Shown here: piece by piece, positions 9,846 through 41,965 of the stretch
Layout: each line of letters opens with the position of its first letter
How positions within the stretch are numbered: position 1 is the stretch's first letter
DNA from: Roseivivax lentus
GTDB taxonomy: Bacteria; Pseudomonadota; Alphaproteobacteria; Rhodobacterales; Rhodobacteraceae
DNA: 53,971 nt
Direction: 5' to 3'
Assembly (NCBI RefSeq): GCF_900156805.1
Contig: NZ_FTOQ01000019.1
Coordinates: 1 to 53,971 of the forward strand
Program-made: the position numbers and the translations under genes
The notes under the pieces: generated by a model
Databases searched by the model: none
Told to the model about the DNA's origin: nothing
The model's input: the letters and a program-made list of their open reading frames with translations, nothing else

Positions 9846-10820
9846 ATGAAGACCAGGTTCACACGGCGGATGGCGATGGCCTTGGCCGCCTCGGCGGGAT
9901 TGATGATGGCAGGCCCCGCGGCCGCCGAGGAATGGGCGCCGCAAAAGCCCGTCGAGATGGTCATCATGGCCGGTCAAGGTGGCGGCGCGGACCGTCTCGC
10001 GCGGCTGTTCCAGTCGATCATCCAGAAGGAAGGCCTCTCCAAGATGCCGATCCTGCCGGTGAACAAGGGCGGCGGTTCGGGCGCCGAGGCGCTGCGCTAC
10101 CTCAAGGACAAATCGGGCGACAATCACGTCATCATGGCGACGCTCAACTCGTATTACACGACGCCGCTGCGCACCGATATCGGCGTCAACATCGAGGAAT
10201 TCACCCCGATCGCGCGCATGGCGCTCGACACCTTCGTCCTGTGGGTGAACGCGGACAGCGACATCCAGAACCTCGACGATTACGTCGCCGCGGTGAAGGC
10301 CGCGGGCGGGTCGTGGAAGATGGGCGGCACCGGCACCGGCCAGGAAGACAGCCTCGTGACCGCGATGCTGCAGAACGAGTTCGGCCTCGACATCACCTAC
10401 GTGCCCTTCAAGGGGGGCGGGGACGTCGCGAAGAACCTCGTCGGCGGGCATATCGACAGCTCCGTGAACAACCCCTCCGAAGCGCTGGGTTTCTACCAGG
10501 CGGGCAAGCTGCGCCCCATCGCGGCCTTCACGCCCGATCGGATCGAGGTCTTCCCGGACACCCCCACCATGACCGAACTCGGCCATGATCTGGTCTACTG
10601 GATGCAGCGCTCCTTCGTGGCGCCCGCGGGCATGGATCCGGCGGCGGTCGCCTACTACACCGAGATGTTCGAGAAGCTGAACGCCACCGAGGAGTGGCAG
10701 ACCTACACCCAGGAAAAGGCCCTGATGGCCGATTTCCTGACCGGTCAGGAGCTGCAGGACTACTTCCTCGAAGAGCGCGCCAAGCACGACGAGCTGCTGG
10801 GTTCGATGGCCGAGGGCTGA
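9846..10820 (+). CDS. tctC: Tripartite tricarboxylate transporter substrate-binding protein TctC
   Basis: The 324-residue periplasmic binding protein of the Bug/TctC family starts at the ATG at 9846, behind AAGGGAG. It opens with a signal peptide (RRMAMALAASAGLMMAGPAAAEE), followed by the family's first strand 'KPVEMVIMAGQGGGADRLARL' and a later 'MGGTGTGQEDSLVTAMLQ'. It captures a small carboxylate for the TctAB membrane pair encoded next. TctB follows after 73 bases that contain a strong hairpin, which usually keeps binding-protein mRNA in excess. The downstream acyl-CoA ligase suggests that the cargo is the ligase's acid, possibly oxalate. Confidence 0.9.
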   Translation: MKTRFTRRMAMALAASAGLMMAGPAAAEEWAPQKPVEMVIMAGQGGGADRLARLFQSIIQKEGLSKMPILPVNKGGGSGAEALRYLKDKSGDNHVIMATLNSYYTTPLRTDIGVNIEEFTPIARMALDTFVLWVNADSDIQNLDDYVAAVKAAGGSWKMGGTGTGQEDSLVTAMLQNEFGLDITYVPFKGGGDVAKNLVGGHIDSSVNNPSEALGFYQAGKLRPIAAFTPDRIEVFPDTPTMTELGHDLVYWMQRSFVAPAGMDPAAVAYYTEMFEKLNATEEWQTYTQEKALMADFLTGQELQDYFLEERAKHDELLGSMAEG

Positions 10821-10847
10821 GGTCAGCCTCACCGACCCAACAAGACC

Positions 10848-10874
10848 AAGGCGCGCGCCGCGAGTGCGCGCCTT
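10848..10874 (+). other. Intercistronic hairpin tctC-tctB
   Basis: AAGGCGCGC (10848-10856) pairs perfectly with GCGCGCCTT (10866-10874) across a nine-base loop. No T-run follows and tctB begins 20 bases later. It is best read as an mRNA-stabilising or partial-termination element that raises tctC expression over tctBA. Confidence 0.65.
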
Positions 10875-10893
10875 CAATTTCGGGGGATAGCAA

Positions 10894-11385
10894 ATGCTGA
10901 CTGCGGATCGCGTCATCGCCGGTGCCATCATGGCGCTGTCGGTCTATTTCATGTGGCACGCCACGGTGCTGCCCATCGGCTGGAACGGCGAGACCGGCGG
11001 GCCGGGGGGCGGAGCTTTCCCGTTCTGGCTGTCGGCGATCATGTTCGTCTGCGCGGGCGGGATCATCCTGCGGTCGCTGCGCGAAAAACCCTCGGACACG
11101 GAACCCTTCTTCGACAGCGACACGCTGCGCTCGGTGGTGATCGTCACCATCGCGCTGGTAATCACCGTCGCGCTGATGCCCTGGGCGGGGGCCTATATCG
11201 CGCTGCCGCTCTTCCTGTTCTGGTACCTGAAGATCTTCGGCAAGCATGGCTGGGTCGTGACGCTCGCGATCACCCTCGGCACGCCGGTCTTCCTGTTCTT
11301 CTTCTTCGAGGTGACGCTGAAGATCCTGCTGCCCAAGGGCTTCACCGAACCGTATTTCATTCCGCTTTACGCGCGCTTCTTCTGA
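10894..11385 (+). CDS. tctB: Tripartite tricarboxylate transporter small membrane subunit TctB
   Basis: The 163-residue membrane protein has about four hydrophobic segments (MLTADRVIAGAIMALSVYF; FWLSAIMFVCAGGIIL; VVIVTIALVITVALMPW; LAITLGTPVFLFFFF). Length and layout fit TctB. The 'GGPGGGAFPFWLSAI' stretch after helix 1 is characteristic of the family. It pairs with TctA in the inner membrane. TctA follows after 12 bases. Confidence 0.88.
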   Translation: MLTADRVIAGAIMALSVYFMWHATVLPIGWNGETGGPGGGAFPFWLSAIMFVCAGGIILRSLREKPSDTEPFFDSDTLRSVVIVTIALVITVALMPWAGAYIALPLFLFWYLKIFGKHGWVVTLAITLGTPVFLFFFFEVTLKILLPKGFTEPYFIPLYARFF

Positions 11386-11397: not shown

Positions 11398-12915
11398 ATG
11401 GAACTGCTGGGACATCTGGCCGACGGCTTCGCGACCTCGCTCTCGCCGCTCAACCTGTTCATCGTCATCATCGGCGTGACAGCGGGGCTGTTCATCGGCG
11501 CGATGCCCGGGCTCGGCTCGGTCAATGGCGTGGCGATCGTGCTGCCCATTACCTTCATCGTGCCGCCCGCCTCGGCGATCATCCTGCTCGCCGCGATCTA
11601 TTACGGCGCGATGTATGGCGGCGCGATCTCGTCGATCCTGCTGGGGATACCCGGCGCCTCGACGGCGGTGGCCACGACCTTCGACGGGCGGCCCATGGCC
11701 CAGCAGGGCAAGGCGGGGCTCGCGCTCATCGCGGCGGCCTGCGCGTCCTTCGTGGGGGGCACCATCTCGGTCGTACTGTTCACGCTCTTCGCGGCACCTC
11801 TGGCCGATATCGCGCTGGCCTTCGGACCGGCGGAGGAATTCGCGCTGGTGCTCCTGGCCTTCACGACCTTCGTGGGCCTTGGCGGCGATGACGTCCTGAA
11901 GACGATCATCATGATCTGCCTCGGCCTCGCGCTTTCGACCGTGGGCCTTGACCTCATCTCGGGTCAGCCGCGGCTCATCTTCTTCGACGAGCCGGGTTTC
12001 TATTCTGGCATTTCCTTCCTAGTCCTCGCCATCGGCGTCTACGGCATCGGCGAGATCCTCTACACGATCGAGACGCAGAAGACCGCGCCGCAGGTCACCC
12101 CTGCCAAGCTGACCTTCACCGAGCTGTGGTACGGCATCAAGGAGATCAACAAGCTCTGGAAGACCATGAGCCTCGGTTCGTTCCTCGGCTTCTTCGTCGG
12201 TATGCTGCCCGCGGCGGGTGCCACGCCCGCGGCGCTGATGTCCTACGGGATCGCGAAGCTGACCTCGAAAACGCCCGAGAAATTCGGCAAGGGCGCCATC
12301 GAGGGCGTGGCCGCGCCCGAGACCGCGAACAATGCCGCCTCCACCGGATCGCTTCTGCCGATGCTGACGCTGGGCATTCCGGGGTCGCCCACCACGGCGC
12401 TGCTGCTGGGCGGCATGGTGATGTGGGGCCTCGTGCCCGGACCGATGCTCTTTATCGAGCAGCCGGATTTCGTCTGGGGCCTGATTTCGTCGCTCTATAC
12501 CGCGAACCTCGCTGCCGTTCTGGTCAACCTCGCGCTCATCCCGCTTTTCGTCTGGGCCCTCCGGATGCCCTTCACTGTGCTCTGCTCGCTGGTCTTCGTG
12601 CTCTGCCTCGTGGGCGGCTATGCCCCGAGCCAGAAGCTGCACGATGTCTGGCTGATCGTGGGCTTCGGCGTCGCGGGCTACCTTCTGCGCAAGGCCGACT
12701 ACCCGATGGCGCCGCTGGTGCTGGCGCTGGTGCTCGGGCCGCTGATGGAAAAGAGCTTCCGCCAGACGCTGATCTCCGAACAGGGCAACGTTTTGGCCTT
12801 CATCGAGCGGCCGATTTCGGGCACCTTCATCGCGATCAGCGTGATCTTCTTCGCGCTGCCGCTTCTGAAGCACGTCAAGCGCTGGCTGAAGCGCGATCTG
12901 TCGCCCGCCGAATAA
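11398..12915 (+). CDS. tctA: Tripartite tricarboxylate transporter large permease TctA
   Basis: The 505-residue permease has about 11-12 hydrophobic segments and the two TctA signature loops: 'GAMPGLGSVNGVAIVLPITF' near residue 40 and 'GMLPAAGATPAALMSYGIAK' in the middle, followed by 'EGVAAPETANNAASTGSLLP'. It moves the substrate delivered by TctC using the ion gradient. It is the last transport gene of the operon; the oxalate-CoA-ligase-like gene starts 37 bases downstream, so transport and activation are likely co-transcribed. Confidence 0.92.
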   Translation: MELLGHLADGFATSLSPLNLFIVIIGVTAGLFIGAMPGLGSVNGVAIVLPITFIVPPASAIILLAAIYYGAMYGGAISSILLGIPGASTAVATTFDGRPMAQQGKAGLALIAAACASFVGGTISVVLFTLFAAPLADIALAFGPAEEFALVLLAFTTFVGLGGDDVLKTIIMICLGLALSTVGLDLISGQPRLIFFDEPGFYSGISFLVLAIGVYGIGEILYTIETQKTAPQVTPAKLTFTELWYGIKEINKLWKTMSLGSFLGFFVGMLPAAGATPAALMSYGIAKLTSKTPEKFGKGAIEGVAAPETANNAASTGSLLPMLTLGIPGSPTTALLLGGMVMWGLVPGPMLFIEQPDFVWGLISSLYTANLAAVLVNLALIPLFVWALRMPFTVLCSLVFVLCLVGGYAPSQKLHDVWLIVGFGVAGYLLRKADYPMAPLVLALVLGPLMEKSFRQTLISEQGNVLAFIERPISGTFIAISVIFFALPLLKHVKRWLKRDLSPAE

Positions 12916-12952: not shown

Positions 12953-14479
12953 ATGGAAACGACCCTGAAGGCGCTGCTCGCCCCGCATTCCGGTGAGATG
13001 CCTGCCATCGGAGCGCCCGGTCGGGAGTGGCTGAGCTATGACGGATTGCGCAGCCTCGCGGAGGAGGTGGCGGCCAGCCTGCACGGCATGGGGATCGACG
13101 CGTCGGACCGCGTGGCGATCGTGCTGCCGAACGGGCCGGAAATGGCCACCGCTTTCATCACCGTGGCCCAGGCCGCGACCACCGCGCCGCTGAACCCCGC
13201 CTACCGCGAGGACGAATACGCCTTCTATCTCGAGGATCTGAAAGCCAAGGCGCTGCTGGTCGAGGAGGGTTATGACGGCCCGGCGCTCGCTGCGGCGAAC
13301 AGGCTCGGCATGGGGGTGATCCGCCTGTCGGTGCCCGACGGCGCGGCTTCGGGCCATTTCACGCTGGCCTCGGATCTTTCGGGCAGCGCCGAACGTGCAC
13401 CCGCCGCCGATGACGTGGCGCTGATCCTGCACACTTCGGGCACCACCTCGCGGCCCAAGATCGTGCCGCTGCTGCAGTCGAACATCGCGGCTTCGGCCCA
13501 GCACATCGCGACCTCGCTCGCGCTCACGCCCGAGGATCGCTGCATGAACGTCATGCCGCTTTTCCATATCCACGGGCTCATCGCCGCCGTCGCCGCGACG
13601 CTGTCGGCGGGCGGCTCGGTCTGGTGCGCGCCGGGCTTCGACGCGATGAAGTTCTTCGGCTGGATGAAAGAGGCCGATCCGACCTGGTACACCGCCGTGC
13701 CGACCATGCACCAGGCCATCCTGACCCGTGCGGGCCGCAATGCGGACGTGATCGAGAAGGCGCGTCTGCGCTTCCTGCGCTCCTCCTCGGCCTCGCTGCC
13801 CGCACAGGTCATGGTGCAGCTGCAGGAGACCTTCGGCGCGCCGGTGATCGAGGGATACGGCATGACCGAGGCCGCGCACCAGATGGCGTCCAATCCGCTT
13901 CCGCCGCGCGCGCAGAAGCCCGGTGCCGTGGGTGTCGAGGCCGGCCCCAAGGTCCGCATCGCGCACGAGATCGAGAACCGGCTGGTCGAAGGCACCGGCG
14001 AGGTGGTCATCTCCGGCCCGAATGTAACGCCGGGCTACGAGGGCAATCCCGAGGCCAATGCGAAGAACTTCTTCGAGGCCGAGGGCGCGCGCTGGTTCCG
14101 CACTGGCGACCAGGGGGCCTTCGACGAGGACGGCTACCTGCACCTGACGGGGCGTCTCAAGGAGATCATAAACCGCGGCGGCGAGAAGATCAGCCCGCTC
14201 GAGGTGGATGGCGTGCTGCTCGACCACCCGGAGGTGGCGCAGGTCGTGACCTTCGCCCTGCCGCACCCGAAACTCGGAGAGGAAGTAGCGGCCGCCATCG
14301 TGCTGAAAGAGGGCGCGGAGGCCGACGAGAAGAGCATCCGGGCGTTTGCGGCCGAGCGCATGGCCGACTTCAAGGTGCCGCGCAAGGTCATAATCATGGA
14401 CGAGATCCCGAAAGGCGCCACGGGCAAGATGCAGCGCATCGGCCTGGCCGAAAAGCTTGGCCTCGTGGAAAAGGCGTAA
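12953..14479 (+). CDS. Oxalate-CoA ligase-like AMP-forming acyl-CoA synthetase
   Basis: This 508-residue adenylate-forming enzyme has the P-loop 'HTSGTTSRPK'. The 'SRPK' form, 'VMPLFHIHGL', 'TWYTAVPTMHQAIL', 'EAAHQMASNPLPP' and 'GRLKEIINRGGEKISPLEVD' follow closely the plant AAE3 and yeast Pcs60 oxalate-CoA ligases as I remember them. Predicted reaction: oxalate + ATP + CoA to oxalyl-CoA + AMP + PPi, in the cytoplasm. The catalytic lysine of the C-terminal domain is in 'PKGATGKMQR'. It sits between tctA (37 bases) and a ketopantoate-reductase-family gene (4 bases), which supports an acid-to-oxalyl-CoA-to-glyoxylate route. The family call is firm; oxalate specificity is likely but not proven from sequence. 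Confidence 0.8.
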   Translation: METTLKALLAPHSGEMPAIGAPGREWLSYDGLRSLAEEVAASLHGMGIDASDRVAIVLPNGPEMATAFITVAQAATTAPLNPAYREDEYAFYLEDLKAKALLVEEGYDGPALAAANRLGMGVIRLSVPDGAASGHFTLASDLSGSAERAPAADDVALILHTSGTTSRPKIVPLLQSNIAASAQHIATSLALTPEDRCMNVMPLFHIHGLIAAVAATLSAGGSVWCAPGFDAMKFFGWMKEADPTWYTAVPTMHQAILTRAGRNADVIEKARLRFLRSSSASLPAQVMVQLQETFGAPVIEGYGMTEAAHQMASNPLPPRAQKPGAVGVEAGPKVRIAHEIENRLVEGTGEVVISGPNVTPGYEGNPEANAKNFFEAEGARWFRTGDQGAFDEDGYLHLTGRLKEIINRGGEKISPLEVDGVLLDHPEVAQVVTFALPHPKLGEEVAAAIVLKEGAEADEKSIRAFAAERMADFKVPRKVIIMDEIPKGATGKMQRIGLAEKLGLVEKA

Positions 14480-14483: not shown

Positions 14484-15467
14484 ATGAAAATCTGTGTTTT
14501 CGGCGCCGGGGCCATCGGCGGCTATATGGGTGTGAAACTGGCCCAGGCCGGGGCGGATGTGAGCCTTGTCGCCCGTGGCCCGCATCTGGCCGCGATGAAG
14601 GAGAAGGGGCTAACCCTGATCGAGGAAGACGCCGATCCCGTCACCGTGCAAGTGACCGCCAGCGACAATCCCGCCGATCTGGGGCCGCAGGATTACGTCA
14701 TCGTCACGCTCAAGGCGCATTCGGTGCCGCCCGTGGTGCCGAAGATGCAGCCGCTCATCGGCGAGAACACCACCATCGTGAGCGGCGTGAACGGCGTGCC
14801 GTGGTGGTATTTCCACAAGATCGGCGGCGAGCTCGAGGGCACCCGGCTCGAAACCGTCGATCCCGGCAACGCGCAATGGGACGGCTTCGGGCCCGACCGG
14901 GTTCTGGGCTGCGTGGTCTATCCGGCGGCGGAGGTCTCCGAGCCCGGCACGATCAAGCATATCGAGGGCAACCGCTTCAGCCTCGGAGAGCCCGACGGCT
15001 CCAAGTCCGAGCGCGCCATGGCGCTCTCGAAGGCGCTCGGTGCCGCGGGGCTCAAGGCGCCCGTGCGGCCGCGGCTGCGTGACGAGATCTGGGTGAAGCT
15101 TTGGGGCAACCTGTCGTTCAATCCGATCTCGGCGCTGACCCACGCGACGCTGGACGTGCTCTGCACCGACGAGGGCACGCGGCCCGTGGCGCGCGCCATG
15201 ATGCTCGAGGCGCAGGAGATCGCCGAGAAGCTGGGCGTGAAGTTTCCCATCGACGTGGACCGCCGGATCGACGGCGGGGCGGCGGTGGGCGCGCACCGGA
15301 CCTCGATGCTGCAGGATCTCGACCAGGGCCGCCCGATGGAAATCGACGCGCTCGTAGGCTCCGTACAGGAGCTGGGCCGCGTGACGAACACGCCCACGCC
15401 CACCATCGATACGGTGCTGGCATTGGTGAAGCTGCGCGCGAAAAGCGCCGGGCTCTACGGGGCCTGA
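14484..15467 (+). CDS. Ketopantoate-reductase-family enzyme, candidate oxalyl-CoA reductase (PanE2-like)
   Basis: This 327-residue NAD(P)-dependent 6-phosphogluconate-dehydrogenase-like protein starts at the ATG at 14484. The Rossmann motif is GAGAIGG (residues 7-13) and the family catalytic lysine is in 'EIWVKLWGNLSFNP' (about Lys205). Annotation engines would call it 2-dehydropantoate 2-reductase. In Methylobacterium extorquens a paralogue of this family (PanE2) reduces oxalyl-CoA to glyoxylate. Position four bases after an oxalate-CoA-ligase-like gene and absence of other pantothenate genes make that the better guess here. If so, it feeds glyoxylate to the Bhc enzymes encoded at 37-42 kb. 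Confidence 0.7.
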   Translation: MKICVFGAGAIGGYMGVKLAQAGADVSLVARGPHLAAMKEKGLTLIEEDADPVTVQVTASDNPADLGPQDYVIVTLKAHSVPPVVPKMQPLIGENTTIVSGVNGVPWWYFHKIGGELEGTRLETVDPGNAQWDGFGPDRVLGCVVYPAAEVSEPGTIKHIEGNRFSLGEPDGSKSERAMALSKALGAAGLKAPVRPRLRDEIWVKLWGNLSFNPISALTHATLDVLCTDEGTRPVARAMMLEAQEIAEKLGVKFPIDVDRRIDGGAAVGAHRTSMLQDLDQGRPMEIDALVGSVQELGRVTNTPTPTIDTVLALVKLRAKSAGLYGA

Positions 15468-15485: not shown

Positions 15486-16322
15486 ATGAGCATCAAGAAC
15501 ATCCTCGTGGCCTATAACGGCCTGCCGGGCTCGGAGGCGGCTCTTTCGGGCGCCGTCCTGATGCAGCAATATTTCGACGCGCATCTCAACGGGCTCTTCG
15601 CCCATGGCAATCCGTTCCTGTCGCGGAAGATGCAGCACAGCTGGATGCCCTCGAAGGTGCAGGCGGCGATCCTCGAAGTGGCCGAGGGCCCGACGGCGGA
15701 TATCGAACGGCGCTTCTACGAGACCTGCCGCGAGGTGCCCGAGGACAAGCTGCACTGGATCGATTCCGGCGGCTCGGTGCAGCGCACGGTGGCGCGATAC
15801 GCGCGGCTTTTCGATCTGACGGTGCTCGGGATGCACGAATCCAGCGTCGACAACACGATGCGGCACGTGGAGATCCATCCCGACCGCGTGGCCTATGACA
15901 GCGGGCGCCCGGTGATGACCTTCCCGGCCAATCACAAGGGCTCGGTCTTCGGGGGGCGGGCGGTCGTGGCCTGGGATGGCGGACGCGCGGCGGCGCGGGC
16001 GCTCGCGGATGCGATGCAGATCCTCGAGACCGAAACCGAGGTCGAGATCGTCTCGGTGGGCCGCTCGCCGCTCGCGGACAGCCTGCCGGGGATCGACGTC
16101 GCCATGGTTCTCGACCGGCACAACGTGAACGTGACGATCACCGAATTGCCACGTGGCCGCCAATCCATCGCCGATACGCTGGTCGATCATTGCGAGAAGA
16201 CCGGGGCGGGCCTTCTGGTGATGGGCGCTTACGAGCATTCCCCGATCCGCGAGGGTCTGATCGGCGGTGTGACCCACGATATCGCTCTGCGCGCGCGCAT
16301 CCCGGTGCTGATGAGCCACTGA
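15486..16322 (+). CDS. Tandem universal stress protein (UspA family)
   Basis: The 278-residue protein has two UspA-like halves. The first opens 'MSIKNILVAYNGLPGSEAAL'; the second opens 'GGRAVVAWDGGRAAARAL' near residue 160 and ends 'LLVMGAYEHSPIREGLIGG' plus 'IPVLMSH'. The second half keeps a degenerate nucleotide-binding G-rich loop. It follows the reductase gene by 18 bases and is probably in the tct-ligase operon. Its role may be adapting the pathway to energy state; no partner is visible. Confidence 0.82.
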   Translation: MSIKNILVAYNGLPGSEAALSGAVLMQQYFDAHLNGLFAHGNPFLSRKMQHSWMPSKVQAAILEVAEGPTADIERRFYETCREVPEDKLHWIDSGGSVQRTVARYARLFDLTVLGMHESSVDNTMRHVEIHPDRVAYDSGRPVMTFPANHKGSVFGGRAVVAWDGGRAAARALADAMQILETETEVEIVSVGRSPLADSLPGIDVAMVLDRHNVNVTITELPRGRQSIADTLVDHCEKTGAGLLVMGAYEHSPIREGLIGGVTHDIALRARIPVLMSH

Positions 16323-20994: not shown

Positions 20995-21023
20995 ATGCAG
21001 CGTCGACCCAGAAACGTGACGCC

Positions 21024-21713: not shown

Positions 21714-21732
21714 GCCCCGCAAGCCCCGCGCG

Positions 21733-29898: not shown

Positions 29899-29905
29899 GG
29901 CACCC

Positions 29906-31908: not shown

Positions 31909-31912
31909 AGGC

Positions 31913-32815: not shown

Positions 32816-34002
32816 TGGCCGAGCGTTCCACCGCCCTGCAGAGTCTCAAGGTGCTCGACCTGACCCGCGTGCGCGCTGGCCCGACCTGCTGCCGCGTGCT
32901 CGCGGATTTCGGCGCGGACGTCGTCAAGATCGAAGCGCCCGTGGGGGCCGACCCCTCGGCGGGCGTCTCGGGCGCGCGGCACGGCTACGACATGCTGAAC
33001 CTGCACCGCAACAAGCGCTCGCTCACGCTGAATCTCAAGGCCCCCGAGGGCCGCGCGCTGTTCCTGCGCATGGTCGAAAGCGCCGATGTGGTGGTCGAGA
33101 ACTTCCGCCCCGACGTGAAGGACCGCCTCGGCATCGCCTATGACGATCTGGCCAAGGTGAACCCGCGCATCATCCTCGCCTCGATCTCGGGCTTCGGGCA
33201 GGACGGGCCCTATGCGAAACGCGCGGGCTTCGACCAGATCGCGCAGGGCATGGGCGGGCTCATGGGCGTCACGGGCAATCCCGACGAGGGCCCGATGCGC
33301 GCGGGCGCGGCGGTCGCGGACAGCTCCTCGGGACTTTATGCGGCGATCGGCATCCTCGTGGCACTCCAGGAACGCAGCCAATCGGGCATGGGTCAATGGG
33401 TGCAATCCTCGCTCCTCGAGGCGCAAATCGCCATGATGGACTTCCAGGCCGCGCGCTATCTCGTTGAGGGCGAGGTGCCGAAAAGCTCCGGCAACGATCA
33501 CCCTTACGTCACGCCGATGGGCGTGGTGGCAACGAAGGACGGCTATCTAAACCTCGGCGTCGGCAGCGACCCGCAATGGCAGGCCTTCTGCGAACTCGTC
33601 GGACAGCCCGACTGGGCGACGGACGAGAAATACGCCACCAACCCTGCGCGGTTCGAACGCCGCCCGGAACTCTGGGACCTGCTGAAGCCGATCTTCGCGG
33701 AGCGCACGACCGCCCAATGGGTCGCGGCGCTCGAAGAGGTGGGCGTGCCCGCCGGTCCGATCTACATGATGGACGAGGTCTTCGCCGACCCGCAGGTGCA
33801 GCATCTCGGCATGGCAGCACCCGTGCATCACCCCGCCCGCGGCGAGACCCGTCTTGTCGCGCAACCCGTGAAACTGTCGCGCACGCCCGCTTCGGTTTAT
33901 GTCTCGGCCCCCGACGCGGGCGAACATTCCGACGCGATCCTTGCGGAGGTCGGTGTGACCCCGGACGAGATCGCCGCGCTGCGTGCGCAGAACATCATCT
34001 GA
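32815..34002 (+). CDS. Class III (CaiB/BaiF) CoA-transferase
   Basis: The 395-residue enzyme starts with '[30 protein letters not shown]'. It carries the family catalytic Asp at residue 169 ('VADSSSG'), the same number as in formyl-CoA:oxalate transferase Frc. The reaction moves CoA from an acyl-CoA to a carboxylate through an aspartyl anhydride. It overlaps the hydrolase stop and is followed after 12 bases by acyl-CoA dehydrogenase, so the activated acid is probably oxidised next. The resemblance to Frc is a family feature and does not prove oxalate use; no oxalyl-CoA decarboxylase gene is present. Confidence 0.88.
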
Positions 34003-34014
34003 AGGATGGCAGAG

Positions 34015-35205
34015 ATGAACCAATATGACCCCGACATGATCTCCATGCCCGTGAAGCCCGCCTGGGAGGATATCCGCGACGCGGTGGGCCGGCTCTGCGA
34101 CGATTTCCCCAATGAATACTGGCTGAAGCTCGACAAGGAAGACGCCTATCCGCACGACTTCGTGAACGCGCTGACCGAGTCGGGTTTCCTCGGCGCGCTC
34201 ATCCCCGAGGAATATGGCGGCTCGGGCCTGCCCCTGTCGGCTGCGGGCGCGGTGCTCGAGACGATCCACGCCAAAGGCTGTAACGCGGCGGCCTGCCACG
34301 CGCAGATGTACACGATGGGCACGGTGCTGAAGCACGGCTCGGAGGCGCAGAAGCAGAAATACCTGCCCAAGATCGCCACGGGCGAGCTGCGCCTGCAGGC
34401 CTTCGGCGTGACCGAGCCCACGACTGGCAGCGACACGACGCAGCTCAAAACCAAGGCGGAGAAGACCGACAAGGGCACCTATATCGTGAACGGCCAGAAG
34501 GTCTGGACGAGCCGCGCGTTCGAGTCGGACCTCATGCTGCTGCTGGCCCGCACCACGCCCGCCGTGGAGTGCAAGAAGCGCTCGGACGGGATGTCGGTCT
34601 TTCTCATCGACATGAACGAGGCCAAGAAGAACGGCCTGTCGCTGTCGAAGATCGACGCGATGATCAACCACAACACCTGCGAGGTGTTCTTCGACAACGT
34701 GGAGATTCCCGCCGACACGCTGGTGGGCGAAGAGGGCAAGGGCTTCAAGTACATCGTCGACAGCATGAATGCCGAGCGCATCCTCATTGCCTATGAATGC
34801 ATCGGCGACGCGAAATACTTCATCGAGAAGGCCTGCGATTACGCCAATGACCGCAGCGTCTTCGGCCGGCCCATCGGCGCGAACCAGGGCATCCAGTTCC
34901 CCATCGCCGACGCCTACGCCAAGGCCCAGGCGGCCGAGTTGATGGTCACCAAGGCCGCCGCGATGTTCGACGCGGGCGAGAAGGCCGGGGCCGAGGCCAA
35001 CATGGCCAAGCTTCTGGCGGCGGATGCCTCCTGGGCCTGCGCCGAGGTCTGCATGCAGACCTATGGCGGCTTCGCCTTCGCCCGCGAATACGGGATCGAA
35101 CGGAAATGGCGCGAGGCGCGGCTCTACCAGACCGCACCGATCTCCAAGAACATGATCTACGGCTTCTTGGGCCAGCACGTGCTCGGCCTGCCGCGCAGCT
35201 ACTGA
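34015..35205 (+). CDS. Acyl-CoA dehydrogenase, isovaleryl-type catalytic base
   Basis: The 396-residue flavoprotein has 'FGVTEPTTGSDTTQLKTKA' (FAD/substrate loop) and 'YGGFAFAREYGIERKWREARL'. The C-terminal 'YEGT' catalytic Glu of short/medium-chain enzymes is replaced ('YQTAPIS'). Instead Glu254 in 'MNAERILIA' aligns with the Glu254 base of isovaleryl-CoA dehydrogenase ('DLERLVLA'). The ATG at 34015 has AAGG at the right distance; the ATG at 34006 would overlap that site. It introduces a double bond into a probably branched or substituted acyl-CoA made by the preceding CoA-transferase. Confidence 0.85.
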   Translation: MNQYDPDMISMPVKPAWEDIRDAVGRLCDDFPNEYWLKLDKEDAYPHDFVNALTESGFLGALIPEEYGGSGLPLSAAGAVLETIHAKGCNAAACHAQMYTMGTVLKHGSEAQKQKYLPKIATGELRLQAFGVTEPTTGSDTTQLKTKAEKTDKGTYIVNGQKVWTSRAFESDLMLLLARTTPAVECKKRSDGMSVFLIDMNEAKKNGLSLSKIDAMINHNTCEVFFDNVEIPADTLVGEEGKGFKYIVDSMNAERILIAYECIGDAKYFIEKACDYANDRSVFGRPIGANQGIQFPIADAYAKAQAAELMVTKAAAMFDAGEKAGAEANMAKLLAADASWACAEVCMQTYGGFAFAREYGIERKWREARLYQTAPISKNMIYGFLGQHVLGLPRSY

Positions 35206-35210
35206 CGCGG

Positions 35211-36443
35211 GTGCCCATCGCCGAAGAGATTGACGCCCCGGCGGGACCGCGCTCGCGTTGGCCGGTGCTGGCGGGCGTCTGGGGCGTCTATTTCAGCTTC
35301 GGCGTCATCATCGCCTCGACCGCGCCGCTGATCACCGAGATCCGCGAAGACATCGCGGTCACCAATGCGGGCATGGGGCTGATCCTTGGCGCCTGGCCGC
35401 TGACCTATATCCTGTGTTCGGTGCCCTGCGGCATGGCCCTCGACCGGATCGGCGCGCGGCGCATGCTGGTCATCGCCTGCCTGCTCATGGCAGCCTCCGC
35501 GGGCCTGCGCGGACTGGCCGAGACGCCGCTGCAGCTGTTTCTCGCGGTGGCGCTGTTCGGGGCAGGGGGGCCGATGATCTCTGTCGGTGCGCCGGTGGTG
35601 ATCGCCAAGCTCTACCAGGGCAAGGCGCGGGCCAGCGCGATGGGGCTCTACGTGACCGGCCCCTATCTCGGCGGGCTCGTGGCGCTGGCGATCACCAATT
35701 CCGCGATCATGCCGCTGGTGGGGCAGAACTGGCGCGGCGCGATGCTGGTCTATGCCGGGCTGGTGCTGTTCTCGGCCGTGATCTGGTGGGCGGTGTCGCG
35801 CCCGCGCGCCGCCGATATCGGGCCGGGGACCGGTGCCAGCAAATACAACCTCTCGGCCTTCGCCGAGATCGTCGGCTTGCGGCAGGTGCAGCTCATCCTC
35901 GTGATGTCGGTCGGGGTGTTCTTCGTCAATCACGGGCTCAACAACTGGATGCCCGAGATCCTGCGCAGCTACGGCTTCTCGGCGGTGGCGGCGGGATATT
36001 GGGCGGCGCTGCCCTCGGCCATCGGGATCCTCGGCGTGCTGGTCATCCCGCGGCTCGCCACGCCGGAGCGGCGGCTGCTGGTCATGGCGGGGCTGTTCGC
36101 GGCCGTCCTCGTCGCCAGCCTGATGCTGCAAAGCGCGCATCCCGCGCTGCTCGCGCCGGGTCTCATGCTGCAAGGCATCGCGCGCGGGTCGATGATGACG
36201 GTGGCGATTATGCTGCTGATGGAGACGCCGGGCGTGCCCGAAGAGCGCCTCGGCCTCGCGGGCGGCATGTTCTTCACCGCCGCCGAGATGGGCGGCGTGC
36301 TGGGGCCGGTCACGCTGGGGGCGCTCGCGCATGGATCGGGCGGTTTCGCGCTGCCGCTTCTGTCGGTCACGGCGGTATCGGTGCTGCTGCTGGCGCTTCT
36401 GGTCCGGCTCGGCGCGCAGACCCGCGCCGATGCGGCCCGCTGA
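35211..36443 (+). CDS. MFS transporter (CynX/NimT-like)
   Basis: From a GTG at 35211 this is a 410-residue protein with about 12 hydrophobic segments and the MFS loop motif 'GMALDRIGARRMLVIA' between helices 2 and 3. It begins 5 bases after the acyl-CoA dehydrogenase stop, so it ends that operon. It is likely a second uptake or efflux route for the same acid. Its stop abuts the bhcR stop with no gap (TGATCA). The start is uncertain because no strong ribosome site is visible. Confidence 0.8.
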   Translation: MPIAEEIDAPAGPRSRWPVLAGVWGVYFSFGVIIASTAPLITEIREDIAVTNAGMGLILGAWPLTYILCSVPCGMALDRIGARRMLVIACLLMAASAGLRGLAETPLQLFLAVALFGAGGPMISVGAPVVIAKLYQGKARASAMGLYVTGPYLGGLVALAITNSAIMPLVGQNWRGAMLVYAGLVLFSAVIWWAVSRPRAADIGPGTGASKYNLSAFAEIVGLRQVQLILVMSVGVFFVNHGLNNWMPEILRSYGFSAVAAGYWAALPSAIGILGVLVIPRLATPERRLLVMAGLFAAVLVASLMLQSAHPALLAPGLMLQGIARGSMMTVAIMLLMETPGVPEERLGLAGGMFFTAAEMGGVLGPVTLGALAHGSGGFALPLLSVTAVSVLLLALLVRLGAQTRADAAR

Positions 36444-37271
36444 TCAGCGCGCGCGTTCCGGGGGCAGGCCGCCCAGCCTGCGGGTGATCTCGTCCGCGGC
36501 GTTCTTGACCGCGGTGCCGAAGGCCGCGATGCGATCCTCGTCGAAGCGGATGCTCGGACCCGAGATCGACACCCCCGCGCAGGGATTGCCCATCTCGTCG
36601 AAGATCGTGGCGCCAATGCAGGACATGCTTTCGTAGCGTTCCTCGCGGTCGAAGGACCAGCCGCGGGCGCGCGTGCGCGCCAGATCGGCGAACAGATCGG
36701 CCGGCGTGGTGCGGGTATTCGCGGTGAACCGCTCCAGCCCCGCGGCCGAGAGAAGCCGCTTCACCTTGTCCTCCGGCAGGTCGGCGAGGATGGCCTTGCC
36801 GGTGCCCGAGGCATGCATCGCGGTGCGCGTGCCGGGCGGAAAGAAGGCGCGGATCGGGTTCAGCGTTTCGATCTGGCCCACGAACACCACCTCGGCCTTC
36901 TGCGGCACCGCAAGGTTCGCGGTCTCGCCGGTCTCCTCCATCAGCAGCTGCATGACCGGGCGCCCGATCTCGACGAGGTTGGAGCGCTTGAGGAAGGCCG
37001 CGCCGGTGCGGAACGCCTCGATCCCGATCAGCCAGTCCTGCCGGTCCTCGTCGAAGGCGACGAAATCGTGCTTCTGCAGGGTCATCAGGATGCGATGCGT
37101 GGTGGCCGTCGGCACGCCCACGGCCAGCGCCAGATCGCTCAGCGTCATGCGCCCGGCACGCGACAGCGCCACCAGCACCGACAGCGCCCGGTCGAGCGAT
37201 TGCAGCGTCCCGGCGGAGCTTTCGGTGAATTGCGACTTCGGGCGGCCGCGCTGACGTTTGGGGGCTTGCAT
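36444..37271 (-). CDS. bhcR: IclR-family regulator of the beta-hydroxyaspartate cycle, BhcR
   Basis: The 275-residue IclR-type protein has a winged helix (about 24-85; 'MTLSDLALAVGVPTATTHRILMTLQ') and the IclR effector domain ('GTRTAMHASGTGKAILADL', 'SISGPSIRF'). A basic N-terminus (KRQRGRPKSQ) precedes it. It is divergent from bhcABCD exactly as in Paracoccus denitrificans, where BhcR binds the shared promoter and glyoxylate releases it. Two inverted copies of a 15-bp IclR-like site lie in the 211-base divergent gap. Assignment rests on family plus location. Confidence 0.9.
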   Translation of the reverse strand: MQAPKRQRGRPKSQFTESSAGTLQSLDRALSVLVALSRAGRMTLSDLALAVGVPTATTHRILMTLQKHDFVAFDEDRQDWLIGIEAFRTGAAFLKRSNLVEIGRPVMQLLMEETGETANLAVPQKAEVVFVGQIETLNPIRAFFPPGTRTAMHASGTGKAILADLPEDKVKRLLSAAGLERFTANTRTTPADLFADLARTRARGWSFDREERYESMSCIGATIFDEMGNPCAGVSISGPSIRFDEDRIAAFGTAVKNAADEITRRLGGLPPERAR

Positions 37272-37445: not shown

Positions 37446-37482
37446 AGTCTATTTGTTGGCCACCCAAGCGGAGAATCGACCG

Positions 37483-38673
37483 ATGAGCACCCAGAACCCC
37501 GTCTTCATTCCCGGCCCCACCAACATCCCCGAGCGGCTGTTGTCGGCCATGCATGTCCAGACCCGCGATCACCGCGCGCCGGACTTCGTCGAAACCTTCG
37601 CGCCGGTCCTCAACGACACCAAGCGCGTCTTCGGCACCAAGGATGGCACGGTCATCACCTTCCCGGCCTCGGGCACCGGCGGCTGGGAGGCGGCGGTCAC
37701 CAACACGCTCAGCCCCGGCGACAAGGTGCTTGTTGCGCGCTACGGCATGTTCAGCCACCGCTGGATCGACCTCTGCCAGCGCCACGGGCTCGACGTGCAG
37801 ATCATCGAATGCCCCTGGGGCGCAGGTGCCCCCGCCGACAAGTTCGAGTCGGTCCTGTCCGAGGACAAGGGCCATGAGATCAAGGCCGTGCTCGTCACCC
37901 ACAACGAGACCGCGACCGGCGTGAAATCCGACATCGCCGCGGTGCGCGGCGCGATGGACGCGGCCAGCCACCCCGCGATGCTGTTCGTCGATTGCGTCTC
38001 CTCGCTGGCCTCGATGCCCTTCGAGATGGACGCCTGGGGCGTCGACATCGCGGTCTCGGGCTCGCAGAAGGGCTTCATGCTGGCCACCGGCATGGCGATC
38101 CTCGGGGTCAGCCCCAAGGCGCTGGATGCGATGGAGGCGGCCAAGCTGCCGCGCACCTTCTTCGATTTCCGCGACATGACCAAGGCCAATGCCTCGGGCG
38201 GGTTTCCCTACACGCCCCCGCTGCAGCTGATCTACGGGCTGCGCGAAAGCCTGAAGATGCTTTTCGAGGAAGGCCTCGAGAACGTCTATGACCGCCATTT
38301 CCGCCTTGCCGAAGGCGTGCGCCGGGCCACCAAGGCCTGGGGCCTCGACCTCGTGGCGCAATCGCCCGATCTTTACTCCGACACGGTTAGCGCCATCTAT
38401 GTTCCGAAGGGCTTTGACAGCAACGCGCTGACCCAGCATGCCTTCGATGCATATGGCGTGTCCTTCGGCATCGGCCTTGGCGAGATGAACGGAAAAGCCT
38501 TCCGCATCGGCCACCTGGGCAGCCTGACGGATGTCATGGTTCTGTCGGGCCTCGGCGCCATCGAGATGGCGATGGCGGATCTGAACTACCCGATCACGCT
38601 GGGCTCCGGCGTGGCGGCTGCGCAGGAATATTACCGCAGCACCCACGCGCCCGCCGTGCGGTCGGCCGCCTGA
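37483..38673 (+). CDS. bhcA: Aspartate-glyoxylate aminotransferase BhcA
   Basis: The 396-residue class V aminotransferase has 'GPTNIPERLL' near the start, 'SGTGGWEAAVTNTLSPGDKVL', and PLP lysine Lys196 in 'VSGSQKGFML'. It closely follows P. denitrificans BhcA as I recall it, including 'ASHPAMLFVD' and 'GSGVAAAQEYYR'. Reaction: L-aspartate + glyoxylate to oxaloacetate + glycine. ATG 37483 has GGAGA eight bases upstream. First gene of bhcABCD, 14 bases before bhcB. Confidence 0.93.
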   Translation: MSTQNPVFIPGPTNIPERLLSAMHVQTRDHRAPDFVETFAPVLNDTKRVFGTKDGTVITFPASGTGGWEAAVTNTLSPGDKVLVARYGMFSHRWIDLCQRHGLDVQIIECPWGAGAPADKFESVLSEDKGHEIKAVLVTHNETATGVKSDIAAVRGAMDAASHPAMLFVDCVSSLASMPFEMDAWGVDIAVSGSQKGFMLATGMAILGVSPKALDAMEAAKLPRTFFDFRDMTKANASGGFPYTPPLQLIYGLRESLKMLFEEGLENVYDRHFRLAEGVRRATKAWGLDLVAQSPDLYSDTVSAIYVPKGFDSNALTQHAFDAYGVSFGIGLGEMNGKAFRIGHLGSLTDVMVLSGLGAIEMAMADLNYPITLGSGVAAAQEYYRSTHAPAVRSAA

Positions 38674-38687
38674 AAGGAGGAGACGTG

Positions 38688-39665
38688 ATGCTCGACGCAA
38701 CGACCACAGCCGCGGAACTGACGATCGACGACATGCGCGCGGCGCATGAACGGATCAAACCCTATATCCACAACACGCCGGTGCTGACCTCGTCCTATCT
38801 GAACGAGCTGACCGGGGCTGAGCTGTTCTTCAAGTGCGAGAACTTCCAGAAGGCCGGCGCCTTCAAGGTGCGCGGCGCCTGCAACGCGGTCTTCGGGCTG
38901 ACGGATGCGCAGGCCGAGAAGGGCGTCTGCACGCATTCGTCCGGCAACCACGCACTGTCGCTGTCCTACGCGGCGGGCCGCCGGGGCATTCCCTGCTACG
39001 TCGTCATGCCCAAGACCGCGCCCGAGGCCAAGAAGGCTGCCGTGCGGGGCTATGGCGGGCAGATCACCGAATGCGAGCCCTCGACCACCAGCCGCGAAGC
39101 GGTCTTCGCCGAGGTGCAGGCCGCGACCGGTGCGGAATTCGTGCATCCCTACAACGACCCGCGCGTGATCGCGGGCCAGGCCACCTGTTCGGCGGAACTG
39201 ATGGAGCAGGTCGCGGGCCTCGACACCATGGTGGCGCCCATCGGCGGCGGCGGCATGATCTCTGGCACCTGCCTGACGCTGTCGAACCTCGCCCCCGACG
39301 TGAAAATCTACGCAGCCGAGCCCGAACAGGCCGACGACGCGATGCGCTCCTTCAAGGCGGGCCACATCATCGCCGACGATGCGCCGGTCACCATCGCGGA
39401 CGGCCTCAAGGTGCCGCTGAAGGAGAACACCTGGCATTTCGTGTCGAACTTCGTGACCGACGTGCAGACCGCCTCCGAGCAGGAGATCATCGACGCGATG
39501 AAGCTCACCTGGCAGCGCATGAAGATCGTGATGGAGCCGAGCTGCGCCGTGCCCCTTGCAGTCATCCTGAAGAATCCCGACGTCTATCGCGGTCGCCGCG
39601 TCGGCGTCATCGTCACCGGCGGCAATGTCGATCTGGACAAGCTGCCCTGGATGACCGGCGCCTGA
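38688..39665 (+). CDS. bhcB: erythro-beta-hydroxyaspartate dehydratase BhcB
   Basis: The 325-residue fold-type II PLP enzyme has its lysine at Lys60 ('KAGAFKVRGA') and the phosphate-binding 'GGGGMISG'. This is the serine/threonine dehydratase-like family. In the cycle it converts (2R,3S)-beta-hydroxyaspartate to iminosuccinate and water. ATG 38688 follows AGGAGG at seven bases; a GTG three bases earlier is a worse fit. It stands second in the bhcABCD operon. Confidence 0.93.
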   Translation: MLDATTTAAELTIDDMRAAHERIKPYIHNTPVLTSSYLNELTGAELFFKCENFQKAGAFKVRGACNAVFGLTDAQAEKGVCTHSSGNHALSLSYAAGRRGIPCYVVMPKTAPEAKKAAVRGYGGQITECEPSTTSREAVFAEVQAATGAEFVHPYNDPRVIAGQATCSAELMEQVAGLDTMVAPIGGGGMISGTCLTLSNLAPDVKIYAAEPEQADDAMRSFKAGHIIADDAPVTIADGLKVPLKENTWHFVSNFVTDVQTASEQEIIDAMKLTWQRMKIVMEPSCAVPLAVILKNPDVYRGRRVGVIVTGGNVDLDKLPWMTGA

Positions 39666-39730: not shown

Positions 39731-40894
39731 ATGAAAGATACCGTGAACCTCGACGAATTCGAAGTCGGCTACGACATCCCCGCCGCCATCGACATGGACG
39801 AGAGCGAGGTGCAGACGCCCTGCCTCGTGCTCGATCTCGACGCGCTCGAGCGCAACATCAAGAAGATGGGCGACTACGCCAAGGCCCATGGCATGCGCCA
39901 CCGCGTGCACGGCAAGATGCACAAGTCGGTGGACGTGGCCAAGCTGCAGATCGAACTGGGCGGCGCCGTCGGCGTCTGCTGCCAGAAGGTGTCGGAGGCC
40001 GAGGTCTTCGCACGCGGGGGCATCAAGGACGTGCTGGTGTCGAACCAGGTCCGCGAGCCCGCCAAGATCGACCGTCTGGCCCGCATGCCGAAGCTCGGCG
40101 CGCGCACCATCTGCTGCGTCGACCAGATCGAGAACGTGGCCGACCTCTCGGCCGCCGCACAGAAGCACGGCACGGAGATCGAGTGCCTCGTGGAGATCGA
40201 TTGCGGCGCGGGCCGCTGCGGCGTGACCACCATCCCCGCCGTGGTCGAGATCGCCAAGGCCATCGACGCCGCGCCGGGTCTGAAATTCTCGGGCATCCAG
40301 GCTTACCAGGGCGCGATGCAGCACCTCGACAGCTACGAGGAGCGCAAGGAAAAGACCGATATCGCCATCGCCATGGTGCGCGACGCGGTGGACACGCTGA
40401 AGGCCGAAGGGCTGGAATGCGACATCGTCGGCGGCGGCGGCACCGGCTCTTACTATTTCGAGTCGAATTCGGGCGTCTACAACGAGCTGCAGTGCGGCTC
40501 CTACGCCTTCATGGATGCCGATTACGGCCGTATCCTCGACAAGGACGGCAAGCGCATCGACAAGGGCGAATGGGAGAACGCGCTGTTCATCCTGACCTCG
40601 GTCATGAGCCACGCCAAGGCCGAGAAGGCCATCGTCGATGCCGGCCTCAAGGCGCAATCGGTGGATAGCGGCCTGCCGTTCATCTTCGGGCGCGATGACG
40701 TGGAATACGTCAAGTGCTCGGACGAGCATGGCGTCGTGGCCGACCCCAAGGGTGTGCTCGCGGTGAACGAAAAGCTGAAGCTCGTGCCGGGCCATTGCGA
40801 CCCGACCTGCAACGTCCACGACTGGTATGTGGGTCTGCGCAACGGCAAGGTCGAAACGCTCTGGCCCGTCTCCGCGCGCGGCAAGGCGTACTGA
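39731..40894 (+). CDS. bhcC: beta-hydroxyaspartate aldolase BhcC
   Basis: The 387-residue DSD1/D-threonine-aldolase-family PLP barrel has lysine about Lys62 ('HGKMHKS') and the C-terminal metal motif HxD at His355-Asp357 ('GHCDPTC'), equivalent to the divalent-ion ligands of D-threonine aldolase. It joins glycine and glyoxylate into (2R,3S)-beta-hydroxyaspartate. ATG 39731 is preceded by GGGAGAG. A long hairpin separates it from bhcD. Confidence 0.93.
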   Translation: MKDTVNLDEFEVGYDIPAAIDMDESEVQTPCLVLDLDALERNIKKMGDYAKAHGMRHRVHGKMHKSVDVAKLQIELGGAVGVCCQKVSEAEVFARGGIKDVLVSNQVREPAKIDRLARMPKLGARTICCVDQIENVADLSAAAQKHGTEIECLVEIDCGAGRCGVTTIPAVVEIAKAIDAAPGLKFSGIQAYQGAMQHLDSYEERKEKTDIAIAMVRDAVDTLKAEGLECDIVGGGGTGSYYFESNSGVYNELQCGSYAFMDADYGRILDKDGKRIDKGEWENALFILTSVMSHAKAEKAIVDAGLKAQSVDSGLPFIFGRDDVEYVKCSDEHGVVADPKGVLAVNEKLKLVPGHCDPTCNVHDWYVGLRNGKVETLWPVSARGKAY

Positions 40895-40913
40895 TTTTCG
40901 GGCAGTGACAAGG

Positions 40914-40942
40914 ACGCGCGCTCCGGTCTCCGGGGCGCGCGT
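40914..40942 (+). other. Intercistronic hairpin bhcC-bhcD
   Basis: ACGCGCGCTCCGG (40914-40926) pairs with CCGGGGCGCGCGT (40930-40942) over a three-base loop with one wobble, a 13-bp GC-rich stem. No T-run follows and bhcD starts 34 bases later. It probably tunes relative mRNA stability or read-through, making bhcABC more abundant than bhcD. Confidence 0.65.
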
Positions 40943-40975
40943 TCGACCGACAAGACGGGACGAGAAGGACAGAAC

Positions 40976-41965
40976 ATGAGCAACGAAAAAGATGGCAGCG
41001 TCGTCATCGTCACCGAGGAAATCTGCCAGAAGGTCGTCGACCGCGCCTCCGCCTTCACCGCGGTGGAGCAGGTCTTCGGCGCCATGGCCAAGGGCGACGC
41101 CTACAATTTCCCGGTGATCCGCGAGGCGATCGGCTATGCGGATGCGCTTTACGGGTTCAAATCGGGCTTCGACCGCGTCGGCGGGTCGCTGGGCCTGAAA
41201 TCCGGCGGCTACTGGCCGGGCAATGCCGAGAAGGGGCTGACCAATCACCAGTCCACCGTCTTCCTGTTCGATCCCGATACCGGGCGGCTGCAGGCACTGG
41301 TGGGCGGCAATTACCTGACCGCGGTGCGCACCGCCGCGTCGTCGTCGGTGTCCATCGCGCATCTGGCGCGCAAGGACGCGAAGGTGCTGGGCATGGTCGG
41401 CGCCGGCCACCAATCGGCCTTCCAGCTGCGCGCCGCCGCCGAACAGCGCGACTTCGAGCGCGTCGTCGCCTGGAACCCGCATCCCGACATGCTGCCGAAG
41501 CTCGGTGAGGTCGCGAAGGATCTCGGGCTCGATTTCGAGGCGGTCAGCCAGGAAGAGCTGGGTGCGCAGGCGGATGTCATCATCACCATCACCTCCGCCT
41601 TCGAGCCCCTGCTAATGGCCGACTGGATCAAGCCCGGCACGCATATCGCCTGCATGGGCACCGATACCAAGGGCAAGCAGGAGGTCGACGCGGCGCTGCT
41701 GGCCCGGGCGACCGTCTTCACCGACGAGATCGCGCAGTCGATCTCCATCGGCGAGGCGCAGCACGCGGTGGGGCAGGGGCTCATCGCCGAGGGCGACATC
41801 ACGCCCATCGGCGCGGTCATCAACGGCGATCACAAGGGCCGCACCAGCGAGGACGAGATCACGTTGTTCGACGGCACCGGCGTCGGCCTGCAGGACCTCG
41901 CCGTGGCCTCGGTGGCCGCGAAGCTCGCCCGCGAACGGGGCATGGCGCAGACCGTCATGCTTTGA
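40976..41965 (+). CDS. bhcD: Iminosuccinate reductase BhcD
   Basis: The 329-residue ornithine-cyclodeaminase/mu-crystallin-family protein has the dinucleotide motif GAGHQS (142-147) and the conserved 'LKSGGYWPGN' (Lys75). In the cycle it reduces iminosuccinate to L-aspartate with NADH, restoring the amino donor for BhcA. It is the last gene of the operon; a good intrinsic terminator follows 34 bases after the stop. Confidence 0.93.
   Translation: MSNEKDGSVVIVTEEICQKVVDRASAFTAVEQVFGAMAKGDAYNFPVIREAIGYADALYGFKSGFDRVGGSLGLKSGGYWPGNAEKGLTNHQSTVFLFDPDTGRLQALVGGNYLTAVRTAASSSVSIAHLARKDAKVLGMVGAGHQSAFQLRAAAEQRDFERVVAWNPHPDMLPKLGEVAKDLGLDFEAVSQEELGAQADVIITITSAFEPLLMADWIKPGTHIACMGTDTKGKQEVDAALLARATVFTDEIAQSISIGEAQHAVGQGLIAEGDITPIGAVINGDHKGRTSEDEITLFDGTGVGLQDLAVASVAAKLARERGMAQTVML

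Follow-up and report, generated by a model that had tools for sequence, protein, structure and literature searches.

A candidate reductive route of oxalate assimilation beside the beta-hydroxyaspartate cycle genes of Roseivivax lentus

Introduction

Known bacterial use of oxalate is centred on decarboxylation. A reductive step has been described as well: PanE2 of Methylobacterium extorquens, an organism that uses the serine cycle, and ApbA2 of Cupriavidus necator are oxalyl-CoA reductases of the ketopantoate reductase (KPR) family that yield glyoxylate. In this work we analysed a stretch of 53,971 nucleotides from Roseivivax lentus (contig NZ_FTOQ01000019.1, positions 1 to 53,971; hereafter the window). 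It carries a gene of the same reductase family directly behind a predicted oxalate-CoA ligase gene and the genes of a TctCBA transporter and, further on, the genes of the beta-hydroxyaspartate cycle (BHAC), bhcR and bhcABCD. We consider it reasonably likely, though far from certain, that the segment is a reductive oxalate-assimilation module whose glyoxylate is most likely drawn into BhcABCD, two oxalates giving one oxaloacetate.

Several described systems share parts of this arrangement. The C. necator system differs in combining its reductase with frc-oxc and the glycerate pathway (PMC7486775), whereas the window has a ligase in place of frc, and Oxc and Gcl stay under their cut-offs. A synthetic yeast pathway built from FAT2 and panE2 likewise joins an oxalyl-CoA synthetase to an oxalyl-CoA reductase to reach glyoxylate; it was engineered for glycolic acid production (PMC12686821), whereas the window holds a natural gene pair. 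An ATP-dependent oxalate-CoA ligase is also the first enzyme of the AAE3 and Pcs60 catabolism of plants and yeast (for Pcs60, PMC8099913), although plants next decarboxylate oxalyl-CoA (PMC8004701, PMC9090294) and the route proposed for the window would reduce it. The set bhcR and bhcABCD is shared with Paracoccus denitrificans, in which the known feed of the cycle is glycolate and which does not grow on oxalate (PMC11323563). Finally, an island on plasmid pLA6_002 of Paracoccaceae strain La 6 has TctCBA, a universal stress protein (Usp) gene, an ScfR gene and a KPR-like gene in common with the window; it differs in its oxc, frc, fmt, fhs and serine-type genes, and its KPR-like protein is non-orthologous.

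The initial annotation of this DNA knew of no description of oxalate assimilation through the BHAC. We found none either among the matches listed from the open-licence PMC literature, as far as their excerpts extend, nor any of natural reductive oxalate assimilation via a ligase or of its coupling to the BHAC. A survey of 536 genomes groups oxalate pathways by Oxc, Frc and OxlT and by Gcl, hydroxypyruvate reductase and serine-glyoxylate transaminase; by term counts, neither 'hydroxyaspartate' nor 'oxalate-CoA ligase' occurs in its main text (PMC12927642). Each enzyme and the BHAC are already known, and what would be new is a natural ligase-based reductive oxalate route and its coupling to the BHAC. 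If this is true, the existence of a purely reductive module would alter genome-based predictions of oxalate turnover, the BHAC would gain a second input besides glycolate, the enzyme pair assembled artificially in yeast would have a natural source, and an effect of oxalate on BhcR (see below) would gain a possible physiological meaning.

Layout of the segment

On the plus strand of the window, tctC, tctB, tctA, the gene of an AMP-forming ligase and a KPR-family gene follow in succession. This is the order that the initial annotation had claimed, and both Pfam matches and coordinates bear it out: the ligase ends with a TAA stop codon at 14477-14479, and after four bases (gtcc) the reductase begins with the ATG at 14484. 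By Pfam, TctC, TctB and TctA make up a complete tripartite tricarboxylate-type (TTT) transporter. The bhc genes had been placed 22 kb further on, and indeed about 22 kb separate the reductase stop from bhcA; bhcR and bhcABCD all exceed the curated cut-offs of their models (the NF0456xx series, which are NCBIfam equivalog models). The features are as follows.

8277..9683, minus strand: ScfR/RamB-type regulator, divergent from tctC (PF09856 ScfRs, 198 bits)
9709..9729, plus strand: candidate operator TTGTNNNNGCAANNNTTAACA, in the ScfR-tctC gap
9846..10820, plus strand: tctC, periplasmic substrate-binding protein of the TTT transporter and proposed oxalate binder (PF03401)
10894..11385, plus strand: tctB, small membrane subunit (PF07331)
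11398..12915, plus strand: tctA, large membrane subunit (PF01970, 491 bits)
12953..14479, plus strand: putative oxalate-CoA ligase, AAE3/Pcs60 type (PF00501, PF13193)
14484..15467, plus strand: putative PanE2/ApbA2-type oxalyl-CoA reductase, KPR family (PF02558, PF08546)
15486..16322, plus strand: UspA-type universal stress protein, 3' of the reductase (PF00582)
36444..37271, minus strand: bhcR, IclR-type BHAC regulator (NF045644, 357.8 bits, cut-off 350)
37453..38673, plus strand: bhcA, aspartate-glyoxylate aminotransferase (NF045640, 721.7 bits, cut-off 650)
38685..39665, plus strand: bhcB, beta-hydroxyaspartate dehydratase (NF045641, 592.1 bits, cut-off 550)
39731..40894, plus strand: bhcC, beta-hydroxyaspartate aldolase (NF045642, 760.8 bits, cut-off 690)
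40976..41965, plus strand: bhcD, iminosuccinate reductase (NF045643, 593.2 bits, cut-off 500)

The ligase and the reductase travel as a pair

We surveyed 296 genomes of the family, about one per genus; the association statistics ignore phylogeny and genome size, and the counts of BhcC, Oxc, Gcl, the ligase and the apbA/panE family rest on the top 4-7 candidates per genome. The reductase was present in 66 genomes (at 1e-110) and the ligase in 65 (at 1e-150), with both in 64. The two genes are neighbours in 63 of these 64, the last (G225) having them on different contigs. Only the reductase was found in G004 and G280, both of which have Oxc, and only the ligase in G007. We also fetched 80 named loci with flanks of up to 9 kb a side (full length in 56 of them): in 79 of them the reductase gene comes immediately after the ligase gene, and in the 80th (L034) the contig ends at this point. 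Among plasmid records, two match the ligase at 1e-100, and in each of them the reductase gene is adjacent. The pairing of ligase and reductase is not due to chance.

Oxc was found in none of the 64 pair-bearing genomes, compared with 29 of the 232 others (p 0.0013). In the fetched pair loci there was no frc (0/80), no oxlT (0/80) and no close match to Oxc (0/80), apart from two weak Oxc matches at 24-26%. The best Oxc match in the R. lentus genome itself reaches 181.8 bits against a cut-off of 739.4, which leaves this genome outside the classical frc-oxc definition. The class III CoA-transferase of the window (32020-34002) was considered as a possible Frc and rejected, at 280 bits against 504; the rest of the genome was not searched for Frc.

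Oxalate as the likely substrate of the ligase

The ligase had been assigned to the AAE3/Pcs60 oxalate-CoA ligases on the basis of motifs, and solved structures, a tree and a shared motif agree with this. It scores 421 bits against the oxalate-CoA ligase 5ie0, which we take to be the Arabidopsis enzyme, 398 bits against the oxalyl-CoA synthetase 6qjz, 361 bits against the yeast Pcs60-type ligase 8aff and 210 bits against a malonyl-CoA synthetase (MatB). In a 14-row tree that includes three MatB-type and two other ligases, it groups with Pcs60 and with AtAAE3, to which it is 46% identical, and is separate from those five (support 100/99). The motif MTEAxHxM is present in the window ligase, in 79/79 ligases of the fetched loci, in AtAAE3 and in Pcs60; it is absent from MatB and from the malonyl-CoA synthetase-type gene of the window (21733-23301), and we infer that it may mark oxalate specificity. 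The best NCBIfam model for the ligase is FadD7 (424 bits, under its cut-off of 650), and the mycobacterial FadD7 gene presumably adjoins an oxcA gene.

A different small dicarboxylate, malonate for instance, might be the substrate of the transporter and the ligase, with the reductase acting on the product: the substrate range of the ligase is unreadable from sequence, TTT transporters carry many acids, and the malonyl-CoA synthetase-type gene lies only about 6 kb away. This neighbour, however, already fits malonate (796 bits against 558) and shares only 32% identity with the ligase, and the gene context in other bacteria is oxalate-specific. We regard such a substrate as very improbable. Oxalate as the predicted substrate is well supported by the relatives of the ligase, by the adjacency of the pair and by reductase relatives with oxlT, frc, oxc or gcl in their neighbourhood.

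Relatives of the reductase lie mostly in oxalate loci

The reductase matches NF005089, a model named 2-dehydropantoate 2-reductase, with 540 bits (cut-off 223). Its relatives were collected by tblastn against plasmid records, 50 of the 81 matching records being listed, and among the matches listed they lie mostly in oxalate loci. The relative in Azospirillum ramasamyi (66%) is two genes away from oxlT (665 bits against 335), with a transhydrogenase gene and gcl nearby, and that of Phyllobacterium zundukense (57%; L094) is accompanied by gcl (1217 against 711), a transhydrogenase gene, a gene of the fumarylacetoacetate hydrolase (FAH) family and frc (734 against 504). In Cupriavidus campinensis (61%; L092) two frc, one oxc (1057 bits against 739) and an FAH gene are near, and in C. 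metallidurans (61%; L093) frc (624 bits against 504) and an FAH gene. The Methylobacterium bullatum relative (53%) stands in one run of oxlT (630 against 335), FAH gene, reductase and ligase, the ligase being 60% identical to that of the window. The relative in Rhodobacteraceae strain SC52 (82%) is found with FAH, FadR, ABC transporter and ligase genes. Curated cut-offs are exceeded by frc in L094, L093 and L092 and by oxlT in L091 and L095; a true Oxc is encoded in L092, and proteins closely related to it are found in Caballeronia L119, L100 and L125.

The FAH-family gene recurs near PanE2 or the ligase despite differing transporters (L090, L092, L093, L094, L095, L098, L101, L104 and others). 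A thiamine-diphosphate enzyme encoded beside frc and PanE2 in Phyllobacterium (L094, 18880-20634) and C. metallidurans (L093, 14573-16324) was tried as Oxc and rejected: an acetolactate-synthase-type model fits it best and a 2-hydroxyacyl-CoA lyase model second, both under cut-off. It might instead catalyse a different reaction of oxalyl-CoA or glyoxylate.

We used the M. bullatum reductase as a stand-in for M. extorquens PanE2. It is 51-52% identical to the Cupriavidus reductases, and 51% identity is given for M. extorquens PanE2 and C. necator ApbA2 (PMC7486775). In C. necator, deletion of apbA2 slows growth on oxalate and deletion of frc-oxc abolishes it (PMC7486775). In our reductase tree of 30 rows, a branch with support of 93/83 separates the 26 members of the oxalate group from the other rows. 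His271 is constant in 26/26 of these reductases and absent in 7/7 other family members; the La 6 KPR-like protein, which comes from an oxalate island and is non-orthologous, is also without it.

Some observations count against this placing of the reductase. The Skermanella rosea relative (66%) has a transhydrogenase gene and no named oxalate gene nearby, and the Sphaerotilus relative (43%) has neither in its vicinity. The 93/83 branch is not starred, and M. bullatum leaves the clade when one very divergent row is added; we are unsure of the deep position of its reductase. Moreover, the reductase is the only gene of the R. lentus genome over the apbA/panE cut-off, a count that leaves IlvC-type reductases aside, and panB is present. 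A second, pantothenate role of the reductase is therefore possible, and 'no pantothenate context', as the gene had been described, holds locally and fails genome-wide.

Taken further, the reductase could simply be the organism's own ketopantoate reductase (PanE), its place behind the ligase being incidental or the enzyme bifunctional. Segments with the catalytic Lys, Asn, Asn, Ser and Glu of the family do align between the reductase and E. coli PanE. In contrast, 127 of the 296 genomes have no match to the apbA/panE family at 1e-20 (panB lies outside that count), which suggests that the family is often dispensable. That the gene stands next to the ligase gene in 63 of 64 genomes, that relatives are found in oxalate loci and that His271 is distributed as described also argue against PanE, and we hold this explanation to be quite improbable.

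TctCBA resembles the transporters of two oxc-frc islands

TctA is encoded near the pair at an identity of at least 45% in 48 of the 80 loci, while some pair loci have instead a FadR regulator, an FAH gene and a different ABC transporter (7-13 of 80, depending on the gene). The window TctA is 62% identical to the TctA of two oxc-frc islands, L100 and L125, the next listed plasmid match being at 47.6%; for TctC the identity is 50% to L100 and 55% to L125. In L100 (genome G004), oxc, frc, a formyltransferase gene, a formate-tetrahydrofolate ligase gene, Usp, TctC, TctB, TctA and PanE2 genes lie on one strand. L125 is the pLA6_002 island of strain La 6 (CP031587.1, 67449-92960), with oxc, frc, fmt, fhs, Usp, TctCBA and ScfR genes, and among 312 plasmid records no other gives a TctA match in the 60-80% band. 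A Usp gene precedes TctCBA in both islands, yet its product is only 26-29% identical to the window Usp. From these two islands we infer that oxalate is the probable ligand of TctCBA.

The La 6 island also carries glyA, hprA, folD and a very divergent KPR-like gene. Its annotation suggested an orthologue of the window reductase, which alignment and tree rejected; it is perhaps a second type of oxalyl-CoA reductase.

A possible link to the beta-hydroxyaspartate cycle

At 1e-150, Gcl was found in 0/296 genomes, with E. coli as a working positive control, in a survey of glyoxylate sinks that leaves aside malate synthase, malyl-CoA lyase and serine-cycle genes. In R. lentus, with neither Gcl nor Oxc over its cut-off, the glyoxylate would most likely enter BhcABCD. 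The initial annotation had proposed a search for co-occurrence with bhcABCD, and across the 296 genomes the pair and BhcC are positively associated: BhcC (1e-150) is present in 45/64 pair genomes and 104/232 others (odds ratio 2.9, p 0.0004), and at the curated cut-off in 40/64 and 85/232, respectively (p 0.0003). These figures derive from 149 BhcC genomes at 1e-150 and 125 over the curated cut-off; the remaining 24 were taken as under it, 20 of them by their scores and four (G049, G066, G113 and G196) on weaker E-values. When genomes with either the pair or Oxc are counted together, BhcC is found in 66/93 of them compared with 83/203 (p 1.6e-6). Five of the 296 genomes (G050, G090, G153, G195 and G266) have two copies of BhcC.

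Close linkage was observed in two other genera with differing transporters. The reductase lies 10.4 kb from bhcC in G021 (L098), where 19.5 kb hold bhcABCD, a gene that reads as a photolyase, FAH, FadR and ABC transporter genes, the ligase and the reductase. The distance is 11.8 kb in G285 (L099), with bhcR-ABCD, a glutamine-synthetase-like gene and an iron alcohol dehydrogenase gene, then ScfR-TctCBA-ligase-reductase; the photolyase and glutamine-synthetase-like labels are our own reading of the translations. Of the 45 genomes that have both the pair and BhcC, 43 allowed a distance to be calculated, and linkage within 12 kb was seen in 2 against 0.24 expected (P 0.025, uniform model with the R. 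lentus genome excluded). In P. denitrificans, oxalate strengthens the binding of BhcR to DNA in vitro (PMC11323563).

Other evidence weighs against a feed into the BHAC. BhcC (1e-150) is missing from 19 of the 64 pair-bearing genomes, and bhc genes flank the pair in 0/80 fetched loci, within up to 9 kb a side (56/80 at full length), which weakens the idea that the two modules are usually neighbours. The linkage odds are modest: at wider limits the counts are 3 at up to 44 kb (0.88 expected, P 0.06) and 4 at up to 90 kb (1.8 expected, P 0.11), and the related genera that enter them are not independent. The bhc genes have a glycolate role of their own, and the R. lentus genome contains glycolate oxidase genes (GlcF over its cut-off, GlcD under), another source of glyoxylate. 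The element of the ScfR-tctC gap was not found at the bhc promoter. P. denitrificans, which has the BHAC, does not grow on oxalate (PMC11323563); its pair content lies outside this comparison.

These observations could be explained if oxalate is reduced as proposed and the glyoxylate leaves by another exit, either joining acetyl-CoA to form malyl-CoA or malate or being transaminated to glycine and on to serine, while the BHAC serves glycolate and its nearness is chance. The genomes without BhcC, the flanks free of bhc and the glycolate oxidase genes would all fit, as would the La 6 oxc-frc-TctCBA island, in which glyA, hprA and folD form a serine-type route. The positive association of pair and BhcC, the close linkage in two other genera in different arrangements and the lack of any Gcl match in 296 genomes speak against it, and we consider this other exit unlikely, although it is the most serious of the alternatives. 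Of the route as first proposed, import, activation and reduction stand on homology and on gene context elsewhere. The feeding of oxalate-derived glyoxylate into the BHAC is plausible but circumstantial: Gcl, co-occurrence and the two linked loci favour it, and the pair genomes without BhcC, the glycolate role of bhc and the missing promoter element do not.

A proposed route and its energy balance

In the proposed route, TctCBA would import oxalate and the ligase would activate it with ATP and CoA to oxalyl-CoA, at two phosphate bonds per oxalate. The PanE2-type reductase would then reduce oxalyl-CoA to glyoxylate with one NAD(P)H, as its family and gene context suggest. Homology and the gene context seen in other bacteria strongly support these predicted steps, in which no CO2 would be lost. 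BhcABCD would join two glyoxylates to one oxaloacetate at the cost of one NADH.

By textbook stoichiometry, 2 oxalate, 2 ATP (to AMP), 2 NADPH and 1 NADH would give 1 oxaloacetate. Full oxidation of the oxaloacetate would return 10 electrons against 6 invested, and we estimate the net energy, transport not included, at about 1-2 ATP per two oxalates (standard stoichiometry, P/O 2.5). As this yield is thin, oxalate would mainly be co-assimilated with another energy source, such as light, inorganic electron donors or other carbon. In addition, the pair and Oxc were never found together in the genomes sampled, and this too makes co-assimilation likelier than growth with oxalate as the sole substrate. 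The broader claim is that many genera of this family possess a natural ligase-reductase-BHAC route without CO2 loss, replacing Oxc and mutually exclusive with it, for which oxalate is a carbon supplement and not a fuel; we see the chances of this as evenly balanced.

The ScfR regulator and its candidate operator

The regulator divergent from tctC scores 353 bits against the RamB model, under the cut-off of 700. ScfR is encoded before tctC, at an identity of at least 45%, in 23 of the 80 related loci. The gap between the two genes (9684-9845) contains two conserved elements, near GTTTACAACATTACA and TTGTTANNGCAAGAATTAACA, as a candidate ScfR operator. The 21-nucleotide element TTGTNNNNGCAANNNTTAACA has no other match in the window at up to 2 mismatches, with 0 in 100 shuffles, and altered forms of it can be recognised in the majority of 14 aligned ScfR-tctC gaps (weakest in L020). 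The gap sequence is identical in L099 and in Maliponia aquimaris (L037). We also looked for a RamB-like TTTGC box in the corresponding gaps of 24 other loci, without success. The conserved element between ScfR and tctC is probably the site through which ScfR controls the module.

Neighbouring genes

The two modules are separated by an RND pump and by an acyl-CoA island that looks unrelated to them. The island (20988-36443) holds genes for a GntR/FCD regulator, the malonyl-CoA synthetase-type enzyme, an FAS1-type dehydratase domain protein and an enoyl-CoA hydratase, together with an MmgE/PrpD protein, a polyamine-type ABC transporter, a deacetylase-like gene, the class III CoA-transferase, an acyl-CoA dehydrogenase and an MFS transporter. 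On the other side of the ScfR gene, an open frame of 997 aa (5002-7995) shows weak Pfam matches to cytochrome P460 and multihaem cytochromes.

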